DNA of 64,000 nt, taken from positions 1 to 64,000 of the forward strand of contig CANKZZ010000001.1 in assembly GCA_947488655.1 (NCBI GenBank). Direction: 5' to 3'. Position numbers and translations under genes: made by a program. Within the stretch, counting starts at the first letter, position 1; the number at the start of each line of letters is the position of its first letter. This DNA is from an uncultured Psychroserpens sp. (GTDB lineage Bacteria; Bacteroidota; Bacteroidia; Flavobacteriales; Flavobacteriaceae). Positions 4,297 to 62,886 of this stretch are shown in pieces. Under the pieces are notes generated by a model that did not search any database, was not told where the DNA came from, and saw only the letters and a program-made list of their open reading frames with translations.

Positions 4297-4493
4297 CTTT
4301 CTTTCTTCGGAAAATAGTATTCCGCAGTTAAAATTTCAGCTAAATTAAGATATTTTAATTGATATCTTTAAACAATGTTAAGATTGAAAATATTTTGAGA
4401 GGTACTAGTTTTGATTTTAAGTTTGAAGTTAAAAATCCTTTGATTCTCTTAAATATGTAAAGAAAAAAATAATCTGTCGAGTATATACTTAGT

Positions 4494-5675
4494 TTAGTTT
4501 TCTTCATCGTCTTCGGCTTCAGTTACTGTATCGTCTTCTACAAATTTTAAATCCTCTACATGCGACATAATAAATTCTCTATTAATGTGTGCCATGTCTT
4601 CTAAGGCAAGTGCAGATTCGTATAACTTTACTGCCTTTTTTGTTTTACCCAATTTTTCGGCATGAAGTGCCATATAATAGGTGCCAAAAGATGAATTTGG
4701 ATTTAGTTTATTCGCTAATTTTCCAATTTTATAAACAGACTCAATATCTTCTCTCTGATCTGCAATGACGATTAATTGTTGTAACTCTTCTTCGGAAATA
4801 GGTTTAAAAATTCCGAATAAATCATCAATACGTTTGTAACGATCTACGATATAATTATCTAATGTGCCTTCATAAGGCAGTGCTTTTTCTTTTAATTCTT
4901 TTTCATCGAGTGGTTTATACAGCTCAAATATTCTATCTAATGCTTTTGATAATGCTCCAGTAACTAAGGTATAATGCGAATCGCCTACTAACTCATCATA
5001 GTAATACGTTAAGTTTTGATTATCTAGTGTTTTTAATTTATCATTTGTGTTCCTAATTCTATCTCTTATAGGTTTGATATCTTTATCTGCAGTTGCCATA
5101 TAATAAAACACATCATTATCTAACCATTCTAATCGCGTTGCCACGTTTTCGTTCATGGTACCTTTAAAATCTGGACTCAAATTTATATAAGCCTGAAATA
5201 CAGGTGTTTCATGAAATAAAAATGAGTTTATAAAATTACCCATTAAATCATGACCAACTGCTACTTTAAATTTACTAGTGTTGAAATTAGAATCTAAATA
5301 CGGTATTAATTCTTGGTCTATAAATTTGTAGAAACGATCGCCAGACTCAAACGGTAATCCTGATACCTCATCATAATAACTATCATAAAAACGCTCTTTA
5401 CCTTGTACAACTCCAACTATGATAGATTTTGGCATTTCATCAAAATAGGTTTGATAACTTACTTGACCAGCAACTGGCTCAAATAAATATTCGGCATCAA
5501 AAACTATAATAACTGGATGTTTTAAATCAGACTCTGGGTCGTAGTTATCTGGAAGTTTAATTTTTAACTCCCTAGAGGAGTTTAATTTTCTAGATTCGAA
5601 TTTCTCATAAGTTACCTGTGCAAATGATTGCGCACATAACAGCAATGAGAAGATAAAAATAAGGCTATTTTTCAT
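4494..5675 (-). CDS. Exported esterase-like alpha/beta-hydrolase with Asp at the nucleophile position
   Basis: The 393-residue protein has a signal peptide ending at ...CAQSFAQ (residue 20). It then has a putative-esterase (PF00756-like) fold: a LPDNYDPESD start, a VIIVFDAEY strand, and the nucleophile elbow VAVGHDLMGN at about 138-147. The expected GxS is GHD here, so Asp143 replaces the catalytic Ser. A His in DSHYTLV is kept. Residues from about 270 look helical and TPR-like, and the tail is acidic. Its upstream neighbour is a clear paralog with the same substitution. It may be a pseudo-enzyme or use an Asp nucleophile as dehalogenases and epoxide hydrolases do; substrate unknown. Confidence 0.75.
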   Translation of the reverse strand: MKNSLIFIFSLLLCAQSFAQVTYEKFESRKLNSSRELKIKLPDNYDPESDLKHPVIIVFDAEYLFEPVAGQVSYQTYFDEMPKSIIVGVVQGKERFYDSYYDEVSGLPFESGDRFYKFIDQELIPYLDSNFNTSKFKVAVGHDLMGNFINSFLFHETPVFQAYINLSPDFKGTMNENVATRLEWLDNDVFYYMATADKDIKPIRDRIRNTNDKLKTLDNQNLTYYYDELVGDSHYTLVTGALSKALDRIFELYKPLDEKELKEKALPYEGTLDNYIVDRYKRIDDLFGIFKPISEEELQQLIVIADQREDIESVYKIGKLANKLNPNSSFGTYYMALHAEKLGKTKKAVKLYESALALEDMAHINREFIMSHVEDLKFVEDDTVTEAEDDEEN

Positions 5676-5767
5676 CTTGTAGTAGGTTTAAATTTAGGGA
5701 CTGTAAATATACCTAAAAATAGTTAAACTACTAATTTATTCGATGAAATGCACAAATTCGTTAGCTT

Positions 5768-6907
5768 TTACTCTTGAAGATCGTAAATTTTATCTAAAAG
5801 CATGTCTTTATTTATAAACTCAGACTCTTCTAATAATAAGCCAGATTGGTACTCTACTAAAGCTCGTCTATCATTACCATTCATTTCTTGGTACAAACCA
5901 GAGTAGTATGCACTTATCATTGATTCTGGATATTCTTTTTTAGCAAGCTTAGATAAACTTTTCATAGATTCTATATCATCCTTTTTCTTTGCTGCTGCAA
6001 GTATTGCTCTAAGATCATTTTCTACTACTTTTTTTTCAAAACCGTAGAAAAACTCTATATCTTCATATTTTTTCATGAGATATGCATAAGGTCCCTCTTC
6101 ATAAGTTAACACCTTCTCTTTATACTCTTGCATGTTAATTGGTTTATATAAACCAAATATTTCATTTATTGCTTTTGGGATCCCTAAACCTACGAGAGAA
6201 TAATGATCTGCATCTGTAAAGTCATCATATCTATAATGAAGCTTGGCATTATCTATAGCGCTAAGAGCTGCATCACATGCTATAATAGACTCTCTTAATT
6301 CTTTGACATCATTATCTGCTGTGGCTAAGTAGTAAAAAGTATCTTCTGTAGTAATAGCAAGTTTTTCTTGTAAACGATTTACCATTTCTGGAGATAGATC
6401 AGGACTAAAAGCTATATAACCTCTAAAAAGAGGTTTATCTTTAAATAACCAATAATTTATAAAGTTTGCGCTTTGGTCATGACCAACAACAATTCTAAAA
6501 TTTGAGGTTAGATACTTCTCATTTATATAAGGTATTAACTCCATACCTATAAATTCAAAAAATTGTGAACCTCCTTCATCTGACGGAAAATAATTAGTAT
6601 CGCTATAAGATAAATCTGCATCTCTTTTTTTAGCCTGATTTATACCAACAATAATAGATTTTGGCATATCTCCCCAATATGAATGATAATCTGCATTACC
6701 TATCATTGGCTCAAACAAATAATCACCATCCAACACAACTATAAGAGGGTATAGAATATCACCTTCTGGATCGTAATTTCTAGGCAGTTGAATTTTAATC
6801 TCTCTTTGTTCTCCTAATTTAGAAGACTCTATAGTTTCATAAGTAACTTGTGCAGTTGCTATTTGAAAAAAGAATGCAAAACTTATTAATAATATTATTT
6901 TATTCAT
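5768..6907 (-). CDS. Exported esterase-like paralog, also GHD at the nucleophile elbow
   Basis: This is a paralog of the downstream gene, with shared QVTYE at the mature N-terminus, DMPKSIIVG, ELIPYI and VVGHD. I chose the ATG at 6907 because it begins a clean signal peptide (MNKIILLISFAFFFQIATAQ); an in-frame ATG at 6934 would add nine residues in front of it. In the shorter numbering the elbow is GHD at 142-144, so Asp again replaces the Ser nucleophile, and the His of DADHYSLV is kept. The C-terminal third is helical. It follows the flippase-like gene by 36 nt and probably belongs to the pan operon transcript. Function unknown. Confidence 0.75.
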   Translation of the reverse strand: MNKIILLISFAFFFQIATAQVTYETIESSKLGEQREIKIQLPRNYDPEGDILYPLIVVLDGDYLFEPMIGNADYHSYWGDMPKSIIVGINQAKKRDADLSYSDTNYFPSDEGGSQFFEFIGMELIPYINEKYLTSNFRIVVGHDQSANFINYWLFKDKPLFRGYIAFSPDLSPEMVNRLQEKLAITTEDTFYYLATADNDVKELRESIIACDAALSAIDNAKLHYRYDDFTDADHYSLVGLGIPKAINEIFGLYKPINMQEYKEKVLTYEEGPYAYLMKKYEDIEFFYGFEKKVVENDLRAILAAAKKKDDIESMKSLSKLAKKEYPESMISAYYSGLYQEMNGNDRRALVEYQSGLLLEESEFINKDMLLDKIYDLQE

Positions 6908-7897: not shown

Positions 7898-7901
7898 AAG
7901 T

Positions 7902-8265: not shown

Positions 8266-9117
8266 TTAATTTAGTGCGATATTATCTATTAGTCTAATAT
8301 CATCTGCATATACTGCAATAAATGCTCTATATGACTTTTGGTTTGATTTTCTTTTAACTGTTTTAAGGGTATCAACATCTGCTATAATAAAATATTCTAG
8401 TTTTAATAAATCATGTTTAGCAAATTGTATAGTTACCCACTCTGTCACTTTATTAGCACTTTTTGTGCCAAATTTTTCTTTAGCAGTTCTTAAGGTTTTA
8501 AAAATAAAAGGTGCAGCATCTCTATACTCAGGTTTTAATCGTGTATTACGAGAACTCATAGCTAAACCATCCTTAGCCCTATGTATTTTACAACCAATAA
8601 CTTTAACTGGTATATTATGTTTAACTACCAGTTTTTTTATAATCATTAATTGCTGGAAATCTTTTTCGCCAAAATATGCCTTATCTGGTCTAACAATTTC
8701 AAAAAGTCGTTTTACGATTGTACCAACACCATCAAAATGACCATCTCTAAAACGACCTTCCATTTCATGCTCTAAACCATCATAATTAAAAGATTTAGAC
8801 ACTACATTATCTCCATAAATATCCTCTACAGATGGCGCGTACACTATAATTTTTTCTTCGGAAATCGTCTTCAACAACTCAACATCGCTGTCTAAAGTTC
8901 TTGGGTAGTTAACTAAATCTTCATGATTGTCAAACTGCGTTGGATTAACAAAAATACTAACCGCTATATAGTCATTTTGGCTTAATCCTTTTATTATTAA
9001 AGAAGCATGACCTTGGTGCAATGCACCCATAGTTGGCACAAAACCAAGAGTTTTCTTTTTAGACTTTAAATCATCTACATAAGTGATTACGTCCTTTTTA
9101 TTTTTAAAAATCTTCAT
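8266..9117 (-). CDS. panC: Pantothenate synthetase (pantoate--beta-alanine ligase)
   Basis: PanC condenses pantoate and beta-alanine using ATP. The protein of 283 residues has the nucleotidyltransferase HxGH motif (MGALHQGH near residue 31), the FVNPTQF pantoate-site strand and the KMSKS-like segment AMSSRN near residue 187. The length is typical. It is the first gene of a minus-strand operon with panD and the flippase-like gene. It is divergent from the GT5-like gene, with which it shares about 110 nt of promoter region. Confidence 0.97.
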
Positions 9118-9189: not shown

Positions 9190-9226
9190 CATGTTTTTTA
9201 CACTTAATTCCAAAAACGAAAGATTT

Positions 9227-10036
9227 ATGAAAGATAAGAGAATATTGTATGTGTCATCTGAGGTTGTACCATATTTACCAGAAACAGAGATTTCTTCAAT
9301 GTCATTTGAAGCTCCAAAAATGGTAAACAAACAAGGAGGTCAAATACGAATATTTATGCCTCGTTATGGAAACATTAATGAAAGAAGACATCAACTTCAT
9401 GAGGTTATTCGCTTATCTGGTATTAACCTAGTCATAAATGATTTAGATATGCCATTAATTATTAAGGTGGCATCTATTCCGAAGGAAAGAATACAAGTAT
9501 ACTTTATAGACAACGAAGAGTATTTTAAAAGAAAGGCTACGTTAACTGACGAAAACGGAAATCTTTTTAATGATAATGATGAGCGTGCTATCTTTTTTGC
9601 TAAAGGTGTTATAGAAACAGTAAAAAAACTAAACTGGTCTCCAGATATTATTCATGTTAATGGATGGTTAGCTTCACTGCTACCATTATACTTAAAAGAA
9701 TTTTATAAAAACGAACCATTATTTACAGAAAGTAAAATTGTAACCTCTGTATACAATCAAAGCTTTGAAGGTACGTTAGATAAGAACATGATTAATAAAG
9801 TAAAATTTGACAATATTGACGAGAGCAAAATTAAAGGTCTAGAAAAGCCTACCTATAATAATCTTATGAAGATTGCAATTGATAACTCTGATGCGCTTAT
9901 TAAAGGTTCAAATGATTTACCAAAAGAACTAAGTGAGTATTTAGATGCTGCTGATAAGCCAGTATTAGACTATTTTCCTATTGAAGATTTTGCAGAGCAC
10001 TACACAGAATTTTACAACACTAAAGTATTAGATTAG
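9227..10036 (+). CDS. Reduced glycogen/starch synthase-like protein (GT5 N-domain only)
   Basis: The 269-residue protein resembles the N-terminal Rossmann half of glycogen synthase (KRILYVSSEVVPYL, IRIFMPRYGNI, DIIHVNGWLASLLPLYLK, SVYNQSFEG). It lacks the whole C-terminal GT-B domain, and the usual KxGGL sugar-nucleotide motif after the first strand is replaced by PETEIS. It is therefore unlikely to be a working glycogen synthase, even though such proteins are commonly labelled so. It starts a plus-strand run with a DUF4270 lipoprotein (11-nt gap) and glmS (6-nt gap), which suggests an envelope-related or regulatory role. I use the ATG at 9227 because the one at 9191 precedes the likely transcription start. 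Confidence 0.8.
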   Translation: MKDKRILYVSSEVVPYLPETEISSMSFEAPKMVNKQGGQIRIFMPRYGNINERRHQLHEVIRLSGINLVINDLDMPLIIKVASIPKERIQVYFIDNEEYFKRKATLTDENGNLFNDNDERAIFFAKGVIETVKKLNWSPDIIHVNGWLASLLPLYLKEFYKNEPLFTESKIVTSVYNQSFEGTLDKNMINKVKFDNIDESKIKGLEKPTYNNLMKIAIDNSDALIKGSNDLPKELSEYLDAADKPVLDYFPIEDFAEHYTEFYNTKVLD

Positions 10037-21638: not shown

Positions 21639-21717
21639 TTAATCCGTTAAAATTTCAGAATTAATACAAAAAACACATCTCACTTTTTTGAGATTTTCTT
21701 CGGAAATGTAAAAACTT

Positions 21718-24717
21718 ATGTACCTCAACACACACACATATTATAGTCTACGATACGGTACAATTGCACCAAAGCAATTGTTAGATATTGCATTAAAAAA
21801 CAATATTAAAACCTTGGTACTAACAGATATTAATAATACATCTGCCTGTTTAGAATTTGTACGCTTATCTCAAAAACTAAATATTAAACCTATACTTGGT
21901 GTAGATTTTAGAAATGGCGCACAACAACAATTTATTGCTATTGCAAAAAATAACACAGGCTTTGAGCAAATTAATCGTTATTTATCTCTGTTTTTACATG
22001 ATAAAACATTAAAAATTCCAGATTGTATTGAAGTAGAACTTACAAACTGCTTTATTATTTACCCGTTTGATTTTGAAAAAGAGTACGATTTAAAACCTAA
22101 TGAATTTATTGGCATTAAACCACAACAGGTTAATCGCCTTAAGTTTTCTAAAAAACAATTAGACTACAATAAGTTGGTGGTTTTAAAAACAACATCGTTT
22201 AGAAACAAGAAAGATTTTAACACACATCGTTTACTTCGTGCTATAGACAATAATATGTTATTAAGTAAGCTTCCTAAAACAGAGCAGAGCAGCGAACATG
22301 ACATATTTATAACACTTGCCGAAATTGAAGAAGCATACAAAGATTTCCCCAAAATATTACACAATACGCAGTCTCTCTTAAGACAATGCAGTATTGATTT
22401 TGATTTTTCCGAAGAAAAAAAACCTGCGAACAAACAGCATTTTACATCATCTGCTAAAGAGGATTACAAACTTTTAAAATCATTAGCATATAATGGCATT
22501 GCTTACCGTTATGGGACACCAGATGACACTATTTGTTCTCGTATAGAAAAGGAACTTCATATTATTAAAGAAAAAGGCTTTATTTCTTACTTTTTAATCA
22601 ATTGGGACATTTTAAAATATGCGAGAAGTAAAAATTACTTTTATGTTGGTCGTGGTAGTGGAGCCAATAGTATTATTGCTTATTTATTGCGTATTACAGA
22701 TGTAGACCCTATAGAATTAGACTTGTATTTTGAGCGTTTTATAAATATGTATCGTACAAATCCGCCAGATTTTGATCTCGATTTTTCATGGCGCGATCGT
22801 GATGATATTACCCAATATATTTTTAATAAATATCAAAATACAGCATTAATAACGGTTTATAATACGTTTAAATTTAAGGCTTCTGTTAGAGAGTTGGGTA
22901 AAGTATTTGGTTTGCCAAAAAGTGAAATAGATAAGTTAACTCAGGGAAAATTTATTATCAATCAATTAGATAAACTTTCAAAACTTGTTCTAATTTACAG
23001 TGAGTACATTCAAGGTTTTCCTAATTATTTAGGGATTCATGCTGGTGGTATTTTAATTTCAGAACAACCTATTCATCATTATACAGCTACTTTTTTACCT
23101 CCAAAAGGTTATGCAACCACACATTTTGATATGGTTACTGCAGAAGATATTGGACTGTATAAATTTGATATTTTGAGTCAACGTGGTTTGGGTAAAATTA
23201 AAGAAGCAGTAGAAATTATAAATAAAAATTATACCAACCAACCACCTGTAGACATTCATAATATTAAACGCTTTAAACAAGATGAGCGTATTAAAGACTT
23301 ATTAAGAAACGCTAAAGCTATTGGTTGCTTTTATGTAGAGTCTCCTGCTATGCGTATGCTCTTAAAAAAATTGCAAGTAGATGATTATTTAGGGCTTGTT
23401 GCAGCAAGTTCTGTTATAAGACCAGGTGTTTCTAACTCTGGTATGATGCAACAGTATATTATAAGACATCGCAACCCTAGCCGAAGAAAGGATGCTCATC
23501 CTACTCTTTTAAAAATTATGCCAGATACGTATGGTGTTATGGTATATCAAGAAGATGTAATTAAAGTTGCTCATCATTTTGGTGGTTTAGATTTGGGAGA
23601 AGCAGATATGTTGAGACGTGGTATGTCTGGGAAATTTCGTTCGCGCGAAGAGTTTTTAAAAGTAAAGCAACAATTTTTTGATAATTGTAAAGCTAGCGGA
23701 AAACCAGATGAATTAGCAATAGATATTTGGAGACAAATAGAAAGTTTTGCTGGCTATGCATTTGCAAAAGGACATAGTGCCTCTTATGCTGTAGAAAGTT
23801 ATCAAAGTTTATTTTTAAAGGCTTATTACCCTTTAGAATATATGGTAGCAACCATTAATAATTTTGGTGGTTTTTATAGAACAGAACTCTATGTACACGA
23901 AGCTAAAATGCATAATGCTATTGTGCAAGCACCTTGCGTTAATAGAAGTAAAATTGAAGCAATTATTGAGAAAAAAACAATTTATTTAGGCTTTATGTTT
24001 TTGCAATCTTTTGAGCAAAGGGTAAGTGAACATATTTTAGATGAGCGTCTTAAAAACGGACCATTTATATCTTTAGATGACTTTATAGAACGTGTTCCAA
24101 TTTCCGTAGAGCAAATTGTCATTTTAATAAAAATAGATGCCTTTAGATTTACTAATAGAAACAAGCGCGAATTACTTTGGGAAGCGCATTTAAAACTCAA
24201 TAAAGTTAAAGCTGAAACTCCAAAAAACACCTTATTTAAAGCAGAACGCAAACAGTATAATACACCAAATTTACCAAGTACATTAACAGAAAATGCATTT
24301 GATGAATTAGAGCTTTTAGGCTTTTCGTTATGCAACGCGTTTCATCTATTACAACAACCTATAAAAAGTAAATTACGTGCAAAACATTTACTTCAATTTG
24401 ATAGGAGACTTATTAATATTCAAGGCTATTTAATTACACTTAAAAATACGCGTACAGTGAATAAAAAAAATATGTTTTTTGGGACGTTTTTAGACTACGA
24501 TGGAGATTTTATTGATACGGTTCATTTTCCGCCAGTGTCAGTAAAATACCCGTTGTCTGGCAGCGGTATTTACGACATTATTGGTACTGTTAGTATTTCT
24601 TTTGGCTGTACAACAATTGAAGTTAAATCTATACAACGTTTAGATATTATTGAAGATCCTCGTTACTCAATAGCTCCTATAAGATTACCAGAATCTAATT
24701 ATAGTAAAACATCATGA
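21718..24717 (+). CDS. DnaE-type DNA polymerase III alpha, short error-prone form
   Basis: A 999-residue C-family polymerase, much shorter than a replicative Bacteroidota DnaE. The N-terminal PHP domain looks degraded: the first motif reads LNTHTYYS and the second reads LTDINN where TDHG is normal. The polymerase palm keeps PPDFDLDF near residue 350 and YFYVGRGSGANS. Helix-hairpin-helix and OB-fold segments follow (INIQGYLITLKNT near 900). The stop overlaps the dinB start (ATGA), so translation is coupled. The setting with umuD and a LexA-like repressor suggests a damage-induced, error-prone polymerase of the DnaE2/ImuC kind. imuA and imuB are not seen here. Confidence 0.9.
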   Translation: MYLNTHTYYSLRYGTIAPKQLLDIALKNNIKTLVLTDINNTSACLEFVRLSQKLNIKPILGVDFRNGAQQQFIAIAKNNTGFEQINRYLSLFLHDKTLKIPDCIEVELTNCFIIYPFDFEKEYDLKPNEFIGIKPQQVNRLKFSKKQLDYNKLVVLKTTSFRNKKDFNTHRLLRAIDNNMLLSKLPKTEQSSEHDIFITLAEIEEAYKDFPKILHNTQSLLRQCSIDFDFSEEKKPANKQHFTSSAKEDYKLLKSLAYNGIAYRYGTPDDTICSRIEKELHIIKEKGFISYFLINWDILKYARSKNYFYVGRGSGANSIIAYLLRITDVDPIELDLYFERFINMYRTNPPDFDLDFSWRDRDDITQYIFNKYQNTALITVYNTFKFKASVRELGKVFGLPKSEIDKLTQGKFIINQLDKLSKLVLIYSEYIQGFPNYLGIHAGGILISEQPIHHYTATFLPPKGYATTHFDMVTAEDIGLYKFDILSQRGLGKIKEAVEIINKNYTNQPPVDIHNIKRFKQDERIKDLLRNAKAIGCFYVESPAMRMLLKKLQVDDYLGLVAASSVIRPGVSNSGMMQQYIIRHRNPSRRKDAHPTLLKIMPDTYGVMVYQEDVIKVAHHFGGLDLGEADMLRRGMSGKFRSREEFLKVKQQFFDNCKASGKPDELAIDIWRQIESFAGYAFAKGHSASYAVESYQSLFLKAYYPLEYMVATINNFGGFYRTELYVHEAKMHNAIVQAPCVNRSKIEAIIEKKTIYLGFMFLQSFEQRVSEHILDERLKNGPFISLDDFIERVPISVEQIVILIKIDAFRFTNRNKRELLWEAHLKLNKVKAETPKNTLFKAERKQYNTPNLPSTLTENAFDELELLGFSLCNAFHLLQQPIKSKLRAKHLLQFDRRLINIQGYLITLKNTRTVNKKNMFFGTFLDYDGDFIDTVHFPPVSVKYPLSGSGIYDIIGTVSISFGCTTIEVKSIQRLDIIEDPRYSIAPIRLPESNYSKTS

Positions 24718-27820: not shown

Positions 27821-28972
27821 ATGCTACCAAAAAAACTCCAAAACAAACTCGATAAGCGTCAACAAGACAATGCGTTTAGACAATTAGGATCATCCAATAA
27901 TCTCGTCGATTTTTCTTCTAACGATTATTTAGGGTTTTCAAAGTCTACAGCTATTTTTGAGAATGCTCACAAATATCTGTTAGACAACAACCTCACAAAA
28001 AACGGAGCAACAGGCTCACGATTATTATCTGGAAACAACCAACTTTTTAACCAAGTAGAACAACAAATAAGTGATTTTCATAATAGTGAGACTGCGCTCA
28101 TTTTTAATTCTGGTTACGATGCCAACTTAGGCTTTTTCTCATGTGTACCTCAACGAAATGATATTATCCTGTATGACCAATTTTGCCATGCATCCATTCG
28201 TGATGGTATTAATATGAGTAACGCAAAAGCATATAAGTTTGAACATAATAATTTGCAAGCGTTAGAAAAAGAGATTCTTCGCTTCGCTGTTAATGACAAC
28301 GATATATATGTCGTCACAGAGTCTGTGTTTTCTATGGATGGTGATTCTCCAAACCTAGAGCAACTCTCTAAAATATGTGCAATACACAATGCAAACCTCA
28401 TTATTGATGAAGCACACGCTGTTGGTGTTTTTGGGAATAACGGAAACGGATTGGTGAACGCGCTCCAATTAGAACACCAAGTTTTCGCAAGACTCATCAC
28501 CTTTGGCAAAGCGTTGGGATGTCATGGCGCAGCAATTTTAGGAAGCCAAAAACTCAAAGATTATCTCATCAATTTTTCGCGACCTTTTATTTATACTACA
28601 GCCTTGCCTCCACACTCGTTAGCGACGATAAAAGTTGCTTATAGTGAGCTTTCCATCACGAGCAATAGCGAAGAATCCCAATTAAATCAACTCCATCAAA
28701 ACATCATTTTTTTTAATTCTGAAATTAAACGACTGCAACTTCAGCAGTTATTTATAGATAGTAATTCGGCAATTCAATGTTGTATTATCTCCGGAAATGA
28801 GCAGGTAAAGCACATTTCCGAAGCATTAAAAAAACAAGGCTTTGACGTTAAAGCCATACTATCTCCAACGGTTACTAAAGATAAAGAGCGACTACGTTTT
28901 TGCTTACACAGTTACAATACTCCTAAAGAAATCACCAAAGTTTTAGAGTTACTCACTACCTTTACATTCTAA
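27821..28972 (+). CDS. bioF: 8-amino-7-oxononanoate synthase
   Basis: BioF condenses a pimeloyl thioester with alanine (PLP-dependent) in biotin synthesis. The 383-residue protein has GATGSRLLSGN near residues 62-72, the cofactor-site DEAHAVGVFG (Asp197, His200) and the Schiff-base Lys230 in TFGKALGCHGAA. The length is typical. It heads the biotin cluster bioF-DUF2007-bioD. To the eye it uses CTC and ATC codons more than its neighbours outside the cluster, which was not counted. Confidence 0.95.
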   Translation: MLPKKLQNKLDKRQQDNAFRQLGSSNNLVDFSSNDYLGFSKSTAIFENAHKYLLDNNLTKNGATGSRLLSGNNQLFNQVEQQISDFHNSETALIFNSGYDANLGFFSCVPQRNDIILYDQFCHASIRDGINMSNAKAYKFEHNNLQALEKEILRFAVNDNDIYVVTESVFSMDGDSPNLEQLSKICAIHNANLIIDEAHAVGVFGNNGNGLVNALQLEHQVFARLITFGKALGCHGAAILGSQKLKDYLINFSRPFIYTTALPPHSLATIKVAYSELSITSNSEESQLNQLHQNIIFFNSEIKRLQLQQLFIDSNSAIQCCIISGNEQVKHISEALKKQGFDVKAILSPTVTKDKERLRFCLHSYNTPKEITKVLELLTTFTF

Positions 28973-30444: not shown

Positions 30445-30454
30445 GACAACGAGT

Positions 30455-37762: not shown

Positions 37763-37873
37763 TTTAAAGGTTTAATTTTATTTTCTTCGGAAATGTGCTA
37801 GACATAAAACCGTTATCGTTTTTTAAACGTATAAACTTTAACAAACAATTAAAATGGTTTCGTAACGTTTTCT

Positions 37874-42900: not shown

Positions 42901-45583
42901 TAATGTTATTGGAGGTTGTGAAACTGCTGCAGCATCTACAGTACCTTCTGATTTATTTATAAGCGAAATATCTGATGCTTCTAGTGGAAGTTCTTCTCTC
43001 ATAGAAATATTTAATGGTACAGCAGGTACCATAAATCTAGCTAATTATAGCATTAGAGTTTTTAACAACGGAAGCTCTTCACCCTCTACAACATCAAACC
43101 TTGTAGGTAGTTTGGCTCCTGGAGAATTACACGTTATTAGTATTGGTACAACATCTTGTGATTTGTCTGCAACTGGTCTAGCGAGCGGTTTGCCAGACCA
43201 AGCCTTTAATAGTGCAGGAGGTATAAATTTTGATAATAATAGCTCTGATGCTATACAACTCTTTAATGGAGGAACACCAATTGATAGTTTTGGAGTTATA
43301 GGTAGCTCAACTTGGGCTAACGGTTTAGGTATTGATGGTGATGGTGTTAACTATAGACGTCAAAATACTGCTGCAACATTGCCTAATACCACTTTTGACA
43401 TTACAGAGTGGGATGAATTTGATTGGACATCTTGTGATGATTCAGACTACAGTAATTTTGGTCTTTATGATTTTTCACTTGGAGTACCTCCAACAGTATC
43501 TGTATTAAATGCACCTAGCTTTAGCTGTGCGTCATCAACTACACTTACTGTAACAGGAACAGAAGGTGTTCCTTCTGGTTTTGGCTTAGTGTACCAATGG
43601 TACTATTTAGCTCCAAACGCGACAACTTTTGTGGTTGTACCTGATAATGCAGATTTTAATGATGTTACTACAAATACATTAGAGGTTGTAAACAGTTTAC
43701 CTTTTAATGAGTATCAATTTTACTGCCAGGTCAGAGAAAACACAGCGTCTTGTTATTCTGCTAGTAATGCAGTAAAATTAGTTGCTGATGGTGCTGTTTG
43801 GGATGGAACTAATTGGTCTTCACCTCCTACAATAGATAAAATTGCTGTTATAGATGGTGATTATGACACGAGTATTGGTGCAAACGGACAGACGAGTTTT
43901 GATGCTTGTCAATTAATCGTAAATACAGATTACATATTAACTATACAAAATAACGACTATGTTAAAGTTCAAAACAACGTGACTGTTAATGGTAACATTG
44001 TTGTTAAATCAGATGGTGCATTTGTACAGGTTGATGACTTAGCTATTGTTAATGGAGATGTATTGACATCTAAAGATAAAATTAGTGTAGAAAAGGAAAC
44101 TGCACCTCTAGCTACTTATCAAGAATATACGTATTGGAGTTCTCCTGTAAATGGAGAATTAATTGGAGATGGTTTGTTTGAAGGCGACCCTAACCGTACA
44201 TTTTGGTACAATGGTAGAAATTTCTTAGACGAAACTGAAGAGACTGGAAATAATGATGCTACCGTAGATGGACAAGATGATATTGATGATAATGCAAATG
44301 ATTGGCAAATTGCAGATTTAACGACACCAATGCTTACAGGTGTTGGTTACGCAGCAACTCATAACAGTATAGGATTTATGCCTGGTCAATTTATATATGT
44401 TTTTGAAGGTCCGTTTAATAATGGAATAATCAACGTTCCTATTTATAGAAATGACGCTGAAACAAATGATAATAACTGGAATTTTATTGGCAACCCTTAC
44501 CCTTCTGCTATTGACGCAGACCTATTTTTAGCTGCTAACGGATCAATTGATCAAACTGTAGGTGCTACAAATGGTGCCATATTTTTCTGGTCGCACAACA
44601 CTGCTGCAGATGGTAACACAAATGGTAATGAGGTATTAAACTATACGCAAAGTGATTACGCAATTATCAATGGTACAGGACAATTAGCTGGTGGAGATAA
44701 TGTGATACCTACTAGACATATACCTTCAGGGCAAGGTTTCTTTGTGTCTATGGATGATGGAGCTGCATCAACATCTGCTGGTGGAACGATAAGAACTACA
44801 GATGTTGTATTTAATAACAGTATGAGAGTTACAGGAAACAATGATCAGTTTTTTAGAAATTCTAATGTGGCTCAATTCAATAAATTAAGGATAAATCTCA
44901 CCTCAGACAACGGAATTTTTAACCAGATATTAGTGGGTTACGTGGATGGCGCAACAAATGATGACGATGGCATGTACTATGATGCAACTAGAAACTTAGC
45001 TGCTAACGCAAGTTCTATCGCTTATTCTCTTATTAATACTACAAGTGATAAGAAGTTTGCAATACAAGGTAAAGCTCCAAGTAGTTTAACTTTAGACGAA
45101 GTGATTCCTTTAGGATTCTATACATCTATTGATGAAGCCACTTTATATAAATTCTCTATTGCAGAACTTCAAGGCGAATTTATGAACAGTAACACTGTTT
45201 ACATTAAGGATAACCTAATGAATATAACACACGACTTAAATGCAAATGATTATACGTTTACTTCGGAAACAGGCGAATTTAACGATCGTTTTGAAATTGT
45301 TTTTCAACGTGAAACACTTTCGGTTGAATCGAATGAATTATCGCCTAACGATTTAACAATTGTAGAACTGGGTAATGGAGACGTTAAATTTTCCGTAGGA
45401 AAAAATATTACAATCAAATCTGTTGAAATTTTAGATGTACTGGGAAGAACGATTTACAACCTAAGAGGACAAAACAATACAGAGACTTATAATTTATCTC
45501 AATTGAGTCAAGCTACATATATAGCAAGAGTTACGCTATCTAATGGACAAACCATTACTAAAAAGGCTATGAAAATAAAATAA
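39989..45583 (+). CDS. 1864-residue multidomain T9SS-secreted protein
   Basis: The signal peptide (MKKNYSLILIAFLCSILSGYGQ) is followed by modules in approximate residue order. These are a lectin-like N-domain to 180, an ASH/choice-of-anchor-D-like domain (184-280), an Ig-like domain (290-380), two FN3-like domains (380-607), a GEVED domain (about 650-760, WIDWNNDGTFDANE), a second choice-of-anchor D domain (767-889), an IPT/TIG-like domain (890-970) and a lamin-tail domain (984-1160). An Ig-like part and a long passenger follow. The last 80 residues are a type A T9SS sorting tail (VEILDVLGRTIYNL ... QTITKKAMKIK). It is likely surface-exposed and adhesive; no catalytic motif is seen. Confidence 0.9.
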   Translation: MKKNYSLILIAFLCSILSGYGQIFSENFTGQNGKGAVGPNPPTIDLTGVPWSIDISSSDLSANTDWFRVQNEVFEARDVDGISIWLSPSIDISAFTDVEFSLDASEQGNHETEDILNTEYRINGGTWLSASTNGNLNDDFTNATVSQTGLNGTTLEIRVIMENNAGTEYLRIDNVLVNGTPAVTSDLAISGSTLDHGSTCINTAATTIQYTITNNGAVPAVGVDAVSDNPEFVVSNLSTTTIAPAGTATYDLTFTPTTVGAKSATITVSSTTITDDATSTLTGLGITTPTISIQPTNVTRVIPNTATFTVASSDATSYQWQVDTGAGFNNVTGGTGATTDTYTTTATNAAMHNNVYRCVLTNACGSTNSNGATLTLTNSNPSNAQNLEGCFEDTLVDLSWNNPSTPPTGGYIIFAIEGATQPTVPTNDANTYTANSDFSAAPFETPASLGKVVYKGNGTTATVTGLTEDTIYSFRIFAYNGEALTGYSNGTSGGSNLEQAAQGDVSNLVATPLTNQVNLNWNNSLPTSCFDQLLIVANEGPVVFTPAGTYTNTDVDYSTPNSIVYATMGTVSVNSVGGLTNGTNYCFKVFIRRGTEWSEGVEVCAVPSLTYCTSEGNGTDGFLTLINNVEFNTIDNASPTGVDNGYSDFTSISTDVVLGETYNLNVRVETDGAYTTTTRAWIDWNNDGTFDANEQYELGNAFDVIDGSTDGSPLAIEVPTNAAIAATRMRVSTRFGATTPSTACFNAANFDGEVEDYTINVIQPVNAEMNIKGNNISIANGFDAPYGLNNTLFGSQDVGSTSAFKNYFVENIGATTLNLTGNPRVEIIGAHAGDFNVTQQPNATVGSLSSSEFRIVFSPTADGTRTATVRIENTDSDEDPYEFDIEGTAVCSTILTSSMWPTEGPENTEVTITSANDLTGATATINGETMTIVSSTATELVVLVPAGAISGNLQVLFSTGCSSTNAFTVIDNVIGGCETAAASTVPSDLFISEISDASSGSSSLIEIFNGTAGTINLANYSIRVFNNGSSSPSTTSNLVGSLAPGELHVISIGTTSCDLSATGLASGLPDQAFNSAGGINFDNNSSDAIQLFNGGTPIDSFGVIGSSTWANGLGIDGDGVNYRRQNTAATLPNTTFDITEWDEFDWTSCDDSDYSNFGLYDFSLGVPPTVSVLNAPSFSCASSTTLTVTGTEGVPSGFGLVYQWYYLAPNATTFVVVPDNADFNDVTTNTLEVVNSLPFNEYQFYCQVRENTASCYSASNAVKLVADGAVWDGTNWSSPPTIDKIAVIDGDYDTSIGANGQTSFDACQLIVNTDYILTIQNNDYVKVQNNVTVNGNIVVKSDGAFVQVDDLAIVNGDVLTSKDKISVEKETAPLATYQEYTYWSSPVNGELIGDGLFEGDPNRTFWYNGRNFLDETEETGNNDATVDGQDDIDDNANDWQIADLTTPMLTGVGYAATHNSIGFMPGQFIYVFEGPFNNGIINVPIYRNDAETNDNNWNFIGNPYPSAIDADLFLAANGSIDQTVGATNGAIFFWSHNTAADGNTNGNEVLNYTQSDYAIINGTGQLAGGDNVIPTRHIPSGQGFFVSMDDGAASTSAGGTIRTTDVVFNNSMRVTGNNDQFFRNSNVAQFNKLRINLTSDNGIFNQILVGYVDGATNDDDGMYYDATRNLAANASSIAYSLINTTSDKKFAIQGKAPSSLTLDEVIPLGFYTSIDEATLYKFSIAELQGEFMNSNTVYIKDNLMNITHDLNANDYTFTSETGEFNDRFEIVFQRETLSVESNELSPNDLTIVELGNGDVKFSVGKNITIKSVEILDVLGRTIYNLRGQNNTETYNLSQLSQATYIARVTLSNGQTITKKAMKIK

Positions 45584-48778: not shown

Positions 48779-51151
48779 TTATCTAATAATCAATAATTTA
48801 AGAACAGTTGTTTCAAACGAGTCTAAATCTGATATTAGGAATAAATACACGCCAGAAGCAACAACATTTCCTCTTAAATTTTTACCATTCCAAATTCCTG
48901 TTCCGCCATCAATAGCAAAATTATAATTTGCTTTAGATGACCTTTGATTAACTCTAGACTGTGCCTCTGCTACAAGATTACCTTCTATATCTGTAATTTT
49001 TACGTTTACGTTTTCAGTAAGTCCAGAGACTTTTACACCATTATTGATATTATTTAGGTCATCAAAACCTAAAATATCATATTCTGGTCTTACTGGATTT
49101 GGATAAACATATGCCTCTTCTAATGTTTCTTTTGGCTTTGTTCCACCAGAAGAAAATGACACTAGACCTTTATCTGTAGCAATATATACTTTACCAGATT
49201 GAGAATCTATTGAGATATCTGTAATAGAATTTGATGGTAATGGAGAATTATCTGTTGTAAACTGGTATATCGTTTCTTGACCATCTGGAGAAAAATAAAA
49301 TATCCCAGAATCTAGTGTGCCTACCCATTTATTATCAGACCCATCTACTTTAATATCTGTTATAAATTGATTAGATAACAACTCTGTAGGTATGCCATCT
49401 TCTAAAATAACAATGGTACTAACGCTTGGCTCAGGATCATCAATAAAATTAGAGGTATTAAATAATACTCGTATGCCTTTAATTGTACCAATCCAAAGTT
49501 GATTTCTACTATCTAAAGCTACCGCTTTTACAACAGCACTTGGCATATTTTGTTCTTCCGAAGAAACACTATTAATTTGTTCTGTATCGGTATTATAGCC
49601 AATAACACCATGAGAGTAAGACGCTATCCATTTAGTGCCACCTGTCCCAACTTCTAAGTCACCAAAACCATTTTCGCCACTTAGTGCAACAGGTATTAAC
49701 TCTGAAAAACTATAACCTTGCCATTGATTTGTAGCAGGATCAAATGATTTTAAAGCACGATCTACTTTGGAAGTGAGCGTCCACATCAAACCTGTTCTAT
49801 CAAATTTGGATGCAGATTGACGAATACTTACTGTATTGGGATTATTTGCTACTAATGATTCTAACCCACTATTAGTTTGATTGTATAAAATTGTAGCCTC
49901 CTCATTATTCATTTCTATTATTCCATGCTGAAAAGAGCTGATAAAAACTTGATCTGGATTAAAAGGATTAATTGCTATATCAACTAAATTTTTTGCGTTT
50001 AGCAAACTATCAAATGGTATATTATTCCACTCTTCATCTCTTAAAATACTAATTCCTCGAGATCGTTGAGGGTTTGGATTAAAAGACAGTGTGTAATCTC
50101 CATAGGTTAACCATAATTTACTATTACCTGCTTCTATTTTAAATGCGCTATTACTAGATGGACCATCTGGTAGTATCACATCAAAAATTTGAGACTCTCC
50201 AGGCACTGTTTTTAAAACTCCTGTTGAGTTTGTACCTAAATACAACTGGTCATCGATTGCTATTGTTCCTGATGTAAAATCTGTATTGTAATCTTGATTT
50301 GTTGATGCAATTTGAATTTCGTTGAAATCTTCATCATACACAAATACGGTCTCACTTAATGCAACTATAAGTTTAGAATTTATAGACCTAATATCTACAG
50401 GTGATGACGGATAGTTTCTAAGAAAAACAAGATTATCACTAATAATCTCATAAATTGAATTGTTTAATCTCGTTGCATATAACTTGGCACCAACAGTTTG
50501 AATAGAGATGAAGTTTCCACCAGAAATTGTTGTCCATTGCTGATAATCTATCAAATTTGAATTTGCTAAGGACGCCTTTTTTAAAGCGTTGTTAGACCCA
50601 CAAGCTGCGTAAATATTATCTTCATAAATTGTGGTTTGATAAATAGGTATTTGACTTCCTCCATTACCAATGAAATAAGTATCTCCAAATTGCAATTGAC
50701 TTAAGTTATATACGGAAATACCATAATCTGTAGAAATATATATAACTCCGTCATGCTCATTTAAATGATTTATTTTTTTTAAAACAGGAGAAATACTTTC
50801 TTTTTCGAGAATATCTACCACAGATAATATTTCATCTTCATCATCAAAAACAATTTCAATCAAACCTGTTTCATAACCAACTACTAATAAATCAAAATCT
50901 TCACTATATGAAATAGTAGAAATAGTTTCTCCAGAGAGTCCTTCTATTGTAGTAATCTTATTAATCTCATTTGTAAGTACATCATAACTAAAAATAGCAT
51001 TTTCTGAAGCTGCAAAAATTTTATCATTTCCTTGTGATATGTCTTTAATTTCAAAGTATGAAAAATAGCCTTCCCACAATGAAGAAAATTCTTGGGAGAC
51101 GCCTTTAAATGAAATTAAAGCCAAAAGGATGAATACTATTTTTTTAATCAT
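48779..51151 (-). CDS. PorZ-like double beta-propeller protein of the type IX secretion system
   Basis: A 790-residue exported protein. The signal peptide (to about 19) is followed by many short WD/propeller-like repeats (SGETISTISYSEDFDLLVVG, GYNTDTEQINSV, VYIATDKGLVSFSSGG) forming two propellers. A C-terminal FlgD/T9SS-type beta-sandwich begins at about 670 (AYVYPNPVRPEYD ... VYLFLISD). Size, architecture and the neighbouring recO match what I recall for PorZ, a T9SS attachment-complex component that handles A-LPS. A generic two-component-regulator propeller protein is the alternative. Confidence 0.7.
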   Translation of the reverse strand: MIKKIVFILLALISFKGVSQEFSSLWEGYFSYFEIKDISQGNDKIFAASENAIFSYDVLTNEINKITTIEGLSGETISTISYSEDFDLLVVGYETGLIEIVFDDEDEILSVVDILEKESISPVLKKINHLNEHDGVIYISTDYGISVYNLSQLQFGDTYFIGNGGSQIPIYQTTIYEDNIYAACGSNNALKKASLANSNLIDYQQWTTISGGNFISIQTVGAKLYATRLNNSIYEIISDNLVFLRNYPSSPVDIRSINSKLIVALSETVFVYDEDFNEIQIASTNQDYNTDFTSGTIAIDDQLYLGTNSTGVLKTVPGESQIFDVILPDGPSSNSAFKIEAGNSKLWLTYGDYTLSFNPNPQRSRGISILRDEEWNNIPFDSLLNAKNLVDIAINPFNPDQVFISSFQHGIIEMNNEEATILYNQTNSGLESLVANNPNTVSIRQSASKFDRTGLMWTLTSKVDRALKSFDPATNQWQGYSFSELIPVALSGENGFGDLEVGTGGTKWIASYSHGVIGYNTDTEQINSVSSEEQNMPSAVVKAVALDSRNQLWIGTIKGIRVLFNTSNFIDDPEPSVSTIVILEDGIPTELLSNQFITDIKVDGSDNKWVGTLDSGIFYFSPDGQETIYQFTTDNSPLPSNSITDISIDSQSGKVYIATDKGLVSFSSGGTKPKETLEEAYVYPNPVRPEYDILGFDDLNNINNGVKVSGLTENVNVKITDIEGNLVAEAQSRVNQRSSKANYNFAIDGGTGIWNGKNLRGNVVASGVYLFLISDLDSFETTVLKLLIIR

Positions 51152-55020: not shown

Positions 55021-55740
55021 TTGAAAAAAGCTAGCCTCATAACACTTGTTTTAATTCTTTTAATGTCTTGCAAAAAGGAAGTAAGAGTTGATTTTTCCGA
55101 AGAAATAATAGAAACATCAGACATTACAGAAATAGCTATTAACTACCCTAAAGCAAATGGTAGCGAAGAGATTACAAACCGTATAAATAAAACTCTAGAG
55201 CGTCATATTATTAAACAAATTAATGTCTCTGAAAACGAGGATACGAAAGGCAATTTGTATGATGCCATTGCAAAATTTAATTATGAGTATAAAAGTTTTA
55301 AAAATGATTTTCCAGAAACTGCATTGCCATGGGAAGCATTTATTGATGGAGAGGTGACTTATCGTTCTCCAGAAATTATAAGTATTGCTATAACGTCATA
55401 CTTAGATACTGGTGGAGCACATGGAAACTCTAGTGTTAGGTTTTTTAATTTTGATCCGCAAACAGGAGAACAATTATTTATAAATGATTTAGTGAGTAAT
55501 GTTGAAGGTTTATCTAATGTAATAAAAGAAAAACTCGTTACTGCAATTAAAGCAGAAGCAGATGATGCTATGCAGGATGTTTTCTTCGGAAAAGATTTTC
55601 AACTACCAGAAACTTTAGGATATAGTGACGAAGGCTTAATAATTTTATATAATCCTTATGAAATTGCAACTTACACACAAGGCATTGTTGAGTTTAGCAT
55701 CCCATTTGAAGCTGTTAATACATTTTTAAAGCTTAATTAG
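55021..55740 (+). CDS. DUF4163/DUF3298 (RsiV-like) lipoprotein
   Basis: 239 residues with lipobox LLMSC (Cys17) followed by KKE. An N-terminal DUF4163-like part is followed by a DUF3298-like part (ISIAITSYLDTGGAHGNSSVRFFNFDPQTGEQLFINDL over residues 121-160, read here in two motifs: YLDTGGAHGN and FDPQTGEQL). The family includes the B. subtilis anti-sigma factor RsiV and PdaC. It starts with TTG at 55021, which gives a perfect lipoprotein signal; no ATG is available. Its last four bases overlap the convergent antiporter gene. Confidence 0.82.
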   Translation: MKKASLITLVLILLMSCKKEVRVDFSEEIIETSDITEIAINYPKANGSEEITNRINKTLERHIIKQINVSENEDTKGNLYDAIAKFNYEYKSFKNDFPETALPWEAFIDGEVTYRSPEIISIAITSYLDTGGAHGNSSVRFFNFDPQTGEQLFINDLVSNVEGLSNVIKEKLVTAIKAEADDAMQDVFFGKDFQLPETLGYSDEGLIILYNPYEIATYTQGIVEFSIPFEAVNTFLKLN

Positions 55741-58331: not shown

Positions 58332-58799
58332 ATCTTGAGGTTTTTTACCAGATTGTCGTGTATCTTCTTTTGTTAAGGTTTTAAAGTTTGATGACTTCGG
58401 AAATTTAGAAACCAACTCCTTTAAATACTCAGGAAGCATTGTTAAGCTTCTCGTTTTTAAATCTATCCAAGCACCAAGAATATCACATGTAGCAACATGT
58501 TTTCCTTTTTGATTATAAAAGTTATGTTCAAATTTAAAAAACATGCCATCATCACTTAAACCCGAAACAGTAAGCGATACTGTTAATGTTTGACCTAGAA
58601 AAGATTCTTTAAAATAATGTATCTGCTCAGAGAAAACTACTGGTCCAATACCATACTCAATAAGCTTTTTCATAGAAAACCCATGCGCGTTTAAAAAACC
58701 AACACGTGTGTGACTCATAAAGTTTAAATAAGCAGAATTGGCTAAATGCCCATTTGCATCCACATCACTCCATCTAATTTCAAAATCTTTTTTGTACAT
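58323..58799 (-). CDS. Acyl-CoA thioesterase (4HBT/YbgC-like hotdog fold)
   Basis: A 158-residue hotdog-fold protein. The 4HBT signature is IRWSDVDANGHLANSAYLNFM, with the catalytic-type Asp and the His of GHLANS, followed by the usual RVGFLNAHG segment. It hydrolyses acyl-CoA or aryl-CoA thioesters; the exact substrate is unknown. The C-terminal tail is polar and overlaps the neighbouring gene end. Confidence 0.88.
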   Translation of the reverse strand: MYKKDFEIRWSDVDANGHLANSAYLNFMSHTRVGFLNAHGFSMKKLIEYGIGPVVFSEQIHYFKESFLGQTLTVSLTVSGLSDDGMFFKFEHNFYNQKGKHVATCDILGAWIDLKTRSLTMLPEYLKELVSKFPKSSNFKTLTKEDTRQSGKKPQDLN

Positions 58800-60417: not shown

Positions 60418-60420
60418 ATT

Positions 60421-60999: not shown

Positions 61000-61125
61000 A
61001 AATACAATAAATATTTAGTTTAAACGTTGCTCTATTTAACAAGAAGAAAATACAAACTAATTGTTAAAATTGTTTCAATCATTAAAAAATATCTTTACAT
61101 TTATTATCTAATTTTTTAATCATAA

Positions 61126-61464: not shown

Positions 61465-61820
61465 AAATGATAAAAAGCATCTTCTAAATGCTCTAAACTC
61501 ATACCTTTTTTATTTAACACAATGGCAATTATATCAAAACGCACATCTACATCCATACTATTATCATTCACAAAATAATCTACAGCTTTAATAATACGTT
61601 GTATTTGCTTGGGTTTTAAGAATTGTTGAGGGTCTCCAAAATCTTTACTTGTTCTTGTCTTAACCTCTACTATAGCCAAAATATTATCTTTTTTAGCAAT
61701 GATATCTACTTCGGCTTTTTGATAGACGTAATTTTTAGCCAAAATCTCATAATCGTTTTTAAGCAAAAAGTTTACAGCTAATTCTTCTCCTTTTTTTCCT
61801 AGTTCGTTATGATCTGCCAA
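61461..61820 (-). CDS. yraN: YraN family (UPF0102) putative endonuclease
   Basis: A 119-residue protein with the restriction-endonuclease-like fold. It has NELGKKGEELAVNFL at the N-terminus, the acidic Asp39 in AEVDIIA and the Glu52-x-Lys54 pair in VEVKTRTS, followed by KPKQIQRI. The family is often linked with competence or Holliday-junction-type processing, but its substrate is not proven. The length is typical. Confidence 0.93.
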   Translation of the reverse strand: MADHNELGKKGEELAVNFLLKNDYEILAKNYVYQKAEVDIIAKKDNILAIVEVKTRTSKDFGDPQQFLKPKQIQRIIKAVDYFVNDNSMDVDVRFDIIAIVLNKKGMSLEHLEDAFYHF

Positions 61821-61875
61821 AATTTAATAATTGGTAAAAGTTTAATATTTAAAAGCTTTATAACTGTAAAATGGT

Positions 61876-62886
61876 CTATTCAAAAACTACAGTAGTACCA
61901 TCTTTACGTACTTGCATGGTTATTACTTCTCCCAAAACCATAGCACGATTATCTTTTTCATGACCTGCTGGCATACCAAATGCAATTGGAAAATCATAAT
62001 CTGCTAAAGCATCAAGAATCAATTGCTCTACAGATGTTCCCCAAGGTGTTGTGTTTTTTCGCATTTTACTCATACCTCCAACCAAAACACCTGCACAATT
62101 ATCAAAATATCCAGCGCGTTTCATACTTTGAAGCATACGATCTATATGATACTTATACTCTCCAATTTCTTCAATAAATAAAATTTTACCAGTTGTATCT
62201 ATACTTTCTTTAGAGCCTAGCATAGTATGAAGTATGGTAAGGTTTCCGCCAACTAATGGTCCGCTTGCCTCACCTACTCTATTGTATGTAGAACCTTTTA
62301 AGGTGTAATAAACTGGTTTTCCAAAAATTGTAGACTTAAAGGTTTGCACAGTTTCTTTTATTTCTGAAATATCTTTTGGTAAGCTCACGCACATCATAGC
62401 ATGAATACTTTGAAAACCTTCATTATGAAATTGATTGTGTAACGCTGTAATATCACTATAGCCAATAAGCCATTTTGGGTTTTTCTTAAACTTAGTATAG
62501 TCTAATTTGTCTAAAATTCTAACAGTACCATAACCACCTCGAGCACACCATATCGCACTTATTGTTGGGTCGTCCATTGCTTTTTGAAAATCTTCGCAAC
62601 GCTCTGCATCTGTTCCTGCAAAATGGTCTGCTTTGTTAAACACGTTTTTACCAACAACCGCATGTAATCCCCAACTTTGTAACAAAGCAACTGCTTGGGC
62701 AACCTCATCATTTCGGTTTTTTAATATTCCAGATGGTGCAACAATTGCAACGGTATCGCCAGATTTTAAAAATGGTGGTTGTATCAAAACGGTTGAATTT
62801 TTTTGGACAGATTTATCTTGAGCACTAACATTTCCGAAGAAAAAACATGCGCAAATTAAGATTAAAAAACAATGAATTTTAGTCAT
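61876..62886 (-). CDS. Exported LD-carboxypeptidase (peptidase S66)
   Basis: LD-carboxypeptidases trim the terminal D-Ala from murein tetrapeptides. The protein has the S66 triad: Ser144 in IGYSDITALH, a Glu in FIEEIGEYKYH (239/240) and His309 in PAGHEKDNRA. The conserved CARGGYGTVRIL is also present. I choose the ATG at 62886, which begins a signal peptide MTKIHCFLILICACFFFGNV with processing near VSAQ; an ATG at 62901 adds five residues. E. coli LdcA is cytoplasmic, so export is noteworthy. It is divergent from metG. Confidence 0.9.
   Translation of the reverse strand: MTKIHCFLILICACFFFGNVSAQDKSVQKNSTVLIQPPFLKSGDTVAIVAPSGILKNRNDEVAQAVALLQSWGLHAVVGKNVFNKADHFAGTDAERCEDFQKAMDDPTISAIWCARGGYGTVRILDKLDYTKFKKNPKWLIGYSDITALHNQFHNEGFQSIHAMMCVSLPKDISEIKETVQTFKSTIFGKPVYYTLKGSTYNRVGEASGPLVGGNLTILHTMLGSKESIDTTGKILFIEEIGEYKYHIDRMLQSMKRAGYFDNCAGVLVGGMSKMRKNTTPWGTSVEQLILDALADYDFPIAFGMPAGHEKDNRAMVLGEVITMQVRKDGTTVVFE

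Follow-up and report, generated by a model that had tools for sequence, protein, structure and literature searches.

The DNA analysed here, a 64-kb window at the start of a contig from the genome of an uncultured Psychroserpens species (3.6 Mb; hereafter G000) of the family Flavobacteriaceae, is strongly enriched in a short word, the core of which is the octamer CTTCGGAA, with T's ahead of it and an A behind; its 10-mer form is TTCTTCGGAA. The RadA protein encoded in the window agrees with the assignment to Psychroserpens: it shares 96% identity with RadA of P. damuponensis, 95% with that of Arcticiflavibacter luteus (the second-best match) and 94% with that of P. burtonensis. The data directly support the abundance of this word, its nature as a signal at the DNA level, its conservation between species, its lack of replication polarity, its patchy spread among relatives and one contrast, within a single genus (g31), that involves competence genes. 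We consider it probable that the word is an independently evolved self mark, similar to DNA-uptake sequences and read by a putative flavobacterial transformation protein. What we infer is the reading of the word by a competence protein, the identity of that protein and the effect on uptake. Among the readings offered in a preliminary description of the window, a DNA-uptake signal fits best, and we present the word as a candidate uptake sequence, not as an established one.

Abundance, anatomy and conservation of the word

All 13 exact copies of TTCTTCGGAA that had been reported in the window are present (one starts at 36004, not 36005), as are the five further CTTCGGAA cores at the positions given. 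Dinucleotide shuffling of the window yields a mean of 0.11 copies of the 10-mer, with none of 100 shuffles reaching 13, and a third-order Markov model of the window expects 0.09, in agreement with the earlier estimate of well under one copy, which had assumed a GC content of about one-third (measured: 32.8%). In the whole of G000, the 10-mer occurs 603 times (318 and 285 on the two strands) versus 12 for the same word read backwards (the reversed word, used as the control), and the octamer 1,194 times versus 119, i.e. at 332 per Mb. The proposed comparison with Markov models was performed on samples of the genome and left the excess standing: a 464-kb sample contains 99 copies of the 10-mer, whereas models of orders 2, 3 and 4 expect 0.43, 0.90 and 4.84. 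Orders 5 and 6 expect 16.8 and 49.9, because such models already contain most of the word. The top-scoring words of lengths 8 to 12 in this sample are all parts or extensions of the same word, and 312 octamers were found in 500 kb (25 stretches) of a complete congeneric genome of 3.84 Mb (G006). The over-representation is confirmed as real and as reaching beyond the window, and the evidence for the word is stronger than could be seen from the window itself.

The word is not a product of the encoded proteins. Using gene calls from a crude custom script rather than a standard gene finder, we found copies on both strands and in all six frame/orientation combinations, unequally (99 10-mers in the 464-kb sample), which extends the earlier remark on either strand and several frames. 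Synonymous-codon shuffling of the coding sequences in 664 kb of G000 (60 runs) gave 6.9 octamers (12 at most) and 1.2 10-mers, versus 203 and 107 observed; in G006, the corresponding values were 15.0 versus 281 and 2.9 versus 105. The reversed octamer, as a control, was observed 20 times versus 12.9 after shuffling in G000 and 17 times versus 13.3 in G006. Shuffling thus leaves no more than 1-3% (G000) or 3-5% (G006) of the copies inside genes, which upholds the claim that protein constraint is insufficient and, being the codon-pair check proposed for the word, does not refute it. Between genes, 23 of the 99 10-mers of G000 were found where 8.8% of the DNA is intergenic. The intergenic share of the octamer is 15.4% versus 8.1% of the DNA in G000, but only 10.3% versus 9.0% in G006; therefore, an intergenic excess is no general feature.

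Copies between genes, on which no protein constraint acts, have approximately the form TTTTTT-CTTCGGAA-A-T. One-mismatch forms are enriched at certain positions only: in G000 and G006, positions 3, 8 and 10 are strict, with next to no tolerance of one-base variants, and tolerance is low at positions 4 and 6, where variants reach no more than 4.8 and 2.6 times expectation. At position 5, by contrast, forms with A or G are enriched 7- to 14-fold, and at position 9 the enrichment of other bases is 2- to 11-fold. The core is non-palindromic, and a palindromic dimer site was rejected, since most of the excess of CTTCCGAA is accounted for as the complement of CTTCGGAAG (37 of 43 in G000 and 73 of 75 in G006). 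The spacing of copies is close to random. As a separate observation, the window copies at 21696, 37783 and 62832 and similar ones run on as ATGTGC, ATGAGC or ATGTAAC, and the 3'-extended form CGGAAATGTGC occurs 8 times versus 0.11 expected in the 464-kb sample.

The word is conserved in place between species beyond the DNA that surrounds it. In a 197-kb alignment of G000 with P. burtonensis (80.5% identity), 53 of the 77 octamers aligned are unchanged, compared with 202 of 1,301 occurrences of permuted words (15.5%; p about 1e-23); the best single permuted word, among the 41 with at least 8 occurrences, reached 44%. Starting from P. burtonensis, 53 of 84 octamers (63%) are retained versus 198 of 1,331 (14.9%) for permuted words. 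Base by base, conservation ranges from 0.90 to 0.96 over positions 2-11, apart from a lower value at position 7 (0.82), and from 0.71 to 0.91 outside them. When the window is taken by itself, 13 of 16 copies are kept in P. burtonensis versus 17% for permuted words; in the lower-copy P. mesophilus, 2 of 10 are kept versus 10%, which gives no clear signal, and in Bizionia arctica, which lacks the enrichment, 0 of 6. Among the sites lost in P. burtonensis, 10 of 24 are one base from the core, as are 15 of the 31 P. burtonensis sites lacking in G000; we had considered gain by import rather than by point mutation, but these counts do not discriminate at this divergence.

The copies in the window, with their conservation in the aligned relatives, are as follows.

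4303..4312, + strand, TTCTTCGGAA: intergenic, just upstream of radA (2938-4296, -); octamer also in P. burtonensis and P. damuponensis
4788..4797, + strand, TTCTTCGGAA: in a putative esterase gene (4494-5675, -); octamer kept in P. burtonensis, P. damuponensis and A. luteus
8854..8863, + strand, TTCTTCGGAA: in a pantoate-beta-alanine ligase gene (8266-9117, -); octamer kept in P. burtonensis, P. damuponensis and A. luteus
9477..9484, - strand, CTTCGGAA: in a starch-synthase-like gene (9191-10036, +); kept in P. burtonensis, P. damuponensis and A. luteus
21696..21705, + strand, TTCTTCGGAA: intergenic, 12 bp upstream of a DnaE-like gene (21718-24717, +); outside the alignments
22407..22416, - strand, TTCTTCGGAA: in the DnaE-like gene; outside the alignments
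28816..28823, - strand, CTTCGGAA: in an aminotransferase gene (27821-28972, +); kept in P. burtonensis
31414..31423, + strand, TTCTTCGGAA: in a class-III aminotransferase gene (30443-31720, +); kept in P. burtonensis
31910..31917, - strand, CTTCGGAA: in a ketoacyl-synthase gene (31777-32940, +); kept in P. burtonensis
35008..35017, - strand, TTCTTCGGAA: in an SPFH/Band 7 gene (33612-35039, +); P. burtonensis has ATTCGGAA in place of the core
36004..36013, - strand, TTCTTCGGAA: in an alpha/beta-hydrolase gene (35346-36314, +); kept in P. burtonensis
37783..37792, + strand, TTCTTCGGAA: intergenic, between the end of an open reading frame at 37762 and a Cupin_8 gene (37902-38762, +); kept in P. 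burtonensis
45261..45268, + strand, CTTCGGAA: in a large GEVED-domain protein gene (39989-45583, +); kept in P. burtonensis
49556..49565, - strand, TTCTTCGGAA: in a PorZ-like gene (48779-51151, -); lost in the P. burtonensis alignment
55095..55104, - strand, TTCTTCGGAA: in a PdaC/DUF3298 gene (55021-55740, +); not kept in P. burtonensis
55582..55591, + strand, TTCTTCGGAA: in the same PdaC/DUF3298 gene (55021-55740, +); octamer kept in P. burtonensis and P. mesophilus
58395..58402, + strand, CTTCGGAA: in a thioesterase-like gene (58323-58799, -); kept in P. burtonensis
62832..62841, - strand, TTCTTCGGAA: in an LD-carboxypeptidase gene (61876-62901, -); kept in P. burtonensis and P. mesophilus

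By our custom gene calls, three copies (4303, 21696 and 37783) indeed lie between genes. Their placement upstream of the radA, DnaE-like and cupin-like genes, to which the preliminary description had drawn attention, is correct, yet most copies are inside genes. Other over-represented words were also seen: AGCAGATGCTC (13 copies) and GGCGGATTA (10 copies) in the 464-kb sample of G000 are unrelated to the main word, and the GC-rich 11-mers CTCGCCAGGGC and CTCGGTGGCTC, present 8-9 times in the first 100 kb of G006, probably belong to a dispersed repeat.

Distribution along the chromosome and among species

Replication polarity was absent in the 500 kb of G006 sampled, where 158 octamers lie on the leading and 154 on the lagging strand (50.6% leading; totals summed by hand, with origin and terminus placed only by the sign of the GC skew, which is noisy). 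KOPS (FtsK-orienting polar sequences) are likewise frequent words of octamer size but are strongly polar toward the terminus, and the suggestion of a KOPS-like site fails on this count. An apparently strand-specific run at G000 C1:471-684 kb was dismissed, as minus-strand copies occur there too. From stretch to stretch of the 25 sampled in G006, octamer counts vary almost as a Poisson distribution would (mean 12.5, variance 16.7). Density is higher in DNA shared with P. burtonensis than in DNA not shared with it (0.391 versus 0.224 per kb, p = 0.054), and the reciprocal comparison gave 0.428 versus 0.216 per kb (p = 0.0096); the depletion in unshared DNA runs in the direction that an uptake sequence would show but is about twofold, short of absence. 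The two sparsest of the 25 stretches, chosen post hoc, are L050, which contains an HsdM-type methylase gene among others, and L059 (G006:C1:3440001-3460000), which has 5 octamers versus a mean of 13.2, encodes a coupling protein, DUF5712 and an AbiEii/DUF6577 pair, and is likely an integrative conjugative element. A sparse island of G000 (C1:137.8-150.1 kb) encodes large secreted surface proteins, so sparseness does not always mark mobile DNA.

Counting as enriched any genome with a minimum of 100 10-mers and a fourfold or greater excess over the reversed control, and tallying the table by eye, we found 37 of 397 Flavobacteriaceae genomes, in 23 of 237 genera, to be enriched; most others are near or below the control. 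Even within Psychroserpens, 22 other species range from 53 to 970 copies of the 10-mer (about 18-fold). Samples of 88-100 kb were taken from four further enriched genera, and in every one of them CTTCGGAA ranks first among octamers. The named genomes searched from Bizionia, Winogradskyella and most of Flavobacterium are not enriched, and Flavobacterium suncheonense is slightly so (365 versus 205). A phylum sample of 395 genomes including G000, with only 40 other family genomes among them, led us to reject phylum-wide presence, as none of the other 394 comes near the octamer density of G000 (332 per Mb; the next one noted has about 120). Two local patterns were also noted. In the small contigs C11-C13 of G513 (uncultured Algibacter isolate 4-491), several CTTCGGAA copies lie all on the same strand, often 0.6-1.2 kb apart, perhaps in a tandem-repeat gene. 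Near radA, two octamers stand exactly 492 bp apart in several mostly word-poor genera (L065, L069, L102, L105 and L108), presumably within one conserved gene.

The search for transformation genes covered comEC and dprA. G000 has both as open frames, and ComEC is matched in 354 of the 397 family genomes (of the 43 without a match, 20 are listed by name and 23 follow from absence among the matches). ComEC is matched in all but one of the 37 enriched genomes (36); the exception, G262, is 68% complete. Near-complete genomes have ComEC in 316 of 330 cases, and the 14 without it contain at most 20 copies of the 10-mer each. The most direct contrast was found within the genus g31. G316 has a ComEC and a near full-length DprA match together with 178 10-mers (control 32) and 257 copies of CTGCGGAA (control 39), whereas G052, an assembly of about 80 contigs with an estimated completeness of 100%, yields no match to ComEC and a partial one to DprA, and contains 13 10-mers (control 41) and 56 copies of CTGCGGAA (control 57). 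The sole DprA-like match in G052 (L206:18105-19190, in G052:C19) covers the C-terminal part of an open frame, the N-terminal part of which we read as a short-chain dehydrogenase of the SDR type. This apparent loss of comEC/dprA without enrichment is a single case, not a series.

A candidate uptake sequence and its alternatives

Several features of uptake sequences are found here, namely high copy number, lack of strand bias, conservation at orthologous places and the presence of transformation genes (comEC and dprA); within-gene orientation bias and an excess of inverted pairs, neither of which we treat as defining, are absent. On the uptake reading, a surface or periplasmic transformation protein would bind CTTCGGAA, with its T-rich stretch before and A after, in incoming duplex DNA, and this binding would favour DNA of the same kind. 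Transformation would then spread and mend the word by biased recombination, copies would pile up where genes tolerate them, and the word would decay once the system is lost or changed. Such a logic has been proposed for the uptake sequences of Neisseria and Pasteurellaceae (PMC2397512, PMC3630211 and PMC2346458). We are evenly divided on the broader proposition that the Flavobacteriaceae own a sequence-specific uptake system that arose separately from those of Neisseria and Pasteurellaceae, works without type IV pili, and saw CTTCGGAA gained or kept in scattered genera and eroded elsewhere.

The USS (uptake signal sequence) of Pasteurellaceae has an A/T-rich flank, and a like flank is seen around CTTCGGAA, where it lies mainly before the core. 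The USS is an 8-10 bp word, genome-wide and without general orientation bias, similar to the word described here; according to PMC2346458, one orientation is commoner within genes, which is not the case here, and core and phylum differ. The DUS (DNA uptake sequence) of Neisseriaceae is likewise a short, high-copy word in coding and intergenic DNA that is conserved between species and over-represented in the core; PMC2397512 and PMC3630211 describe it as rare or absent in newly acquired DNA, whereas the depletion in unshared DNA here is about twofold only. It also differs in its unrelated sequence, its phylum, and in the inverted-pair excess and within-gene orientation bias that are absent here, and, in contrast to both DUS and USS, our word is known from sequence alone. 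A ComP-type pilin receptor cannot be assumed: according to PMC8459023, Riemerella anatipestifer, from the same wider bacterial group, transforms without pilus homologues, partly via uncharacterised genes with homologues reported in Psychroserpens, and the receptor would therefore probably be of a new type. A preference for self DNA is reported for its congener Riemerella columbina, for which PMC7965970 lists A/T-rich strings as candidate words. In the literature searched, which left subscription papers and preprints outside, we found among the matches listed no report of the word and no proven uptake word in Flavobacteriaceae or Bacteroidota; the listed titles of papers in which one of the strings occurs deal with unrelated topics.

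A number of observations weigh against the uptake reading. Intergenic inverted pairs are common, although not universal, among uptake sequences, and opposite-strand partners within 60 bp are at chance level here (12 versus 12.6 expected in G000 and 28 versus 25.8 in G006). Orientation bias within genes was not seen, either for the 10-mer (30 sense to 46 antisense, p = 0.08) or for the octamer (106:97 in G000 and 150:130 in G006). In the reciprocal alignment, one of 30 permuted words was kept in 61% of cases, almost as often as the word (63%). A bias to core DNA and a depletion in accessory DNA would equally be expected of Chi sites. In the family as a whole, ComEC and enrichment are not significantly associated (0 of 14 genomes without it enriched versus 33 of 316 with it, p = 0.38), several or many of the ComEC-less genomes are small, and all 23 Psychroserpens searched carry ComEC, low-copy ones included; ComEC is therefore at most necessary, not sufficient. 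The low-copy congeners G002, G014 and G020 (100 kb each) show no clear alternative word, and in three low-copy Psychroserpens samples CTTCGGAA is still 3- to 8-fold over second-order expectation. Genus-specific dialects, hinted at by samples, were weakened by whole-genome counts of CTGCGGAA, in which two species of one genus (g87) differ (128 versus control 46 in G338; 355 versus 35 in its congener G123). The enrichment in 200 kb of G316 is moderate, CTTCGGAA ranking second among octamers (41 versus 10.3), and the distant genomes G695, G559 and G735 contain 190-210 octamers versus 4-12 reversed (208 to 4 in G695), a few such genomes thus exceeding G000 in their ratio to the reversed word, though at a density about six times below that of G000. 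Finally, no uptake experiment on these genera was found in the literature searched.

What other role might the word play? A site for a protein that binds or marks the whole chromosome, in nucleoid organisation, methylation or as a self mark in defence, is a minor but real possibility. Strong conservation at fixed places and roughly random spacing need no uptake, and the patchy spread would fit an accessory protein; the cyanobacterial HIP1 (highly iterated palindrome 1), the function of which is unproven, is also a very frequent short word of lineage-dependent abundance, although it is a perfect palindrome and the CTTCGGAA core is not. Such a protein alone, however, predicts neither the lower density in unshared DNA nor the comEC/dprA contrast in g31, and the near-Poisson counts in G006 reveal none of the regional clustering that is typical of nucleoid-occlusion and terminus sites. 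We regard as unlikely a Chi-like hotspot, at which a helicase-nuclease of the AddAB type would read single-stranded CTTCGGAA at a broken end and switch to recombination. The octamer length, the high copy number and the greater density in shared, core-like DNA speak for it. The leading-strand bias of 75% known for Escherichia coli Chi is nevertheless rejected by the G006 counts (p = 2.7e-20), and we know of no role for T/A flanks in Chi, whereas they are present around CTTCGGAA. A copy number about 18-fold apart between congeners is odd for a repair signal, and with counts near or below the reversed control in most of the 397 family genomes, this Chi would be dispensable in most relatives. PMC8022716 treats Chi octamers as biased to the core genome, as is our word, and uses polarity, which our word lacks, as a defining property. 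RecC (PF04257), the one subunit searched for, was found in only 1 of the 397 genomes, which is not G000; a RecBCD-Chi system is thus very unlikely, and of the Chi-like site proposed earlier only an AddAB-type version, without polarity and patchy among congeners, is left.

The two remaining explanations fare worse. A transcription-factor, terminator or RNA-hairpin element (TTTC-UUCG-GAAA) is very improbable, even though a C(UUCG)G mini-hairpin can be folded from the word on paper and an intergenic excess exists in G000. The majority of copies lie inside genes, in both orientations, and G006 has little intergenic excess; nine stem-compensatory variants of the hairpin occur at 0-5 copies each in two genomes, near expectation, and inverted-pair terminators were discarded, as one close pair (G000:C2:41541/41573) is no excess over chance. 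The hairpin or terminator reading, including the UUCG mini-hairpin suggested for the window, is largely refuted. To the view that the word is a by-product of protein or codon bias, or the remnant of a dispersed small repeat, we attach virtually no weight: some frames are clearly preferred, but synonymous shuffling removes nearly all coding copies and led us to reject the codon explanation, and the base preference dies away within a few bases of the core, which does not suit repeat remnants.

If the uptake reading is correct, uptake words would have arisen independently once more, in a phylum whose outer-membrane transformation machinery is little known, and a word of 8-14 bp, for example as a TTTTTTCTTCGGAAAT duplex, would provide a probe with which to fish out the DNA receptor. 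It may explain the preference for self DNA, and it would predict which marine flavobacteria are transformable and with which DNA. The contrasts within genera would test whether uptake words spread by molecular drive, and the family would offer many natural replicates of the rise and fall of such a word.

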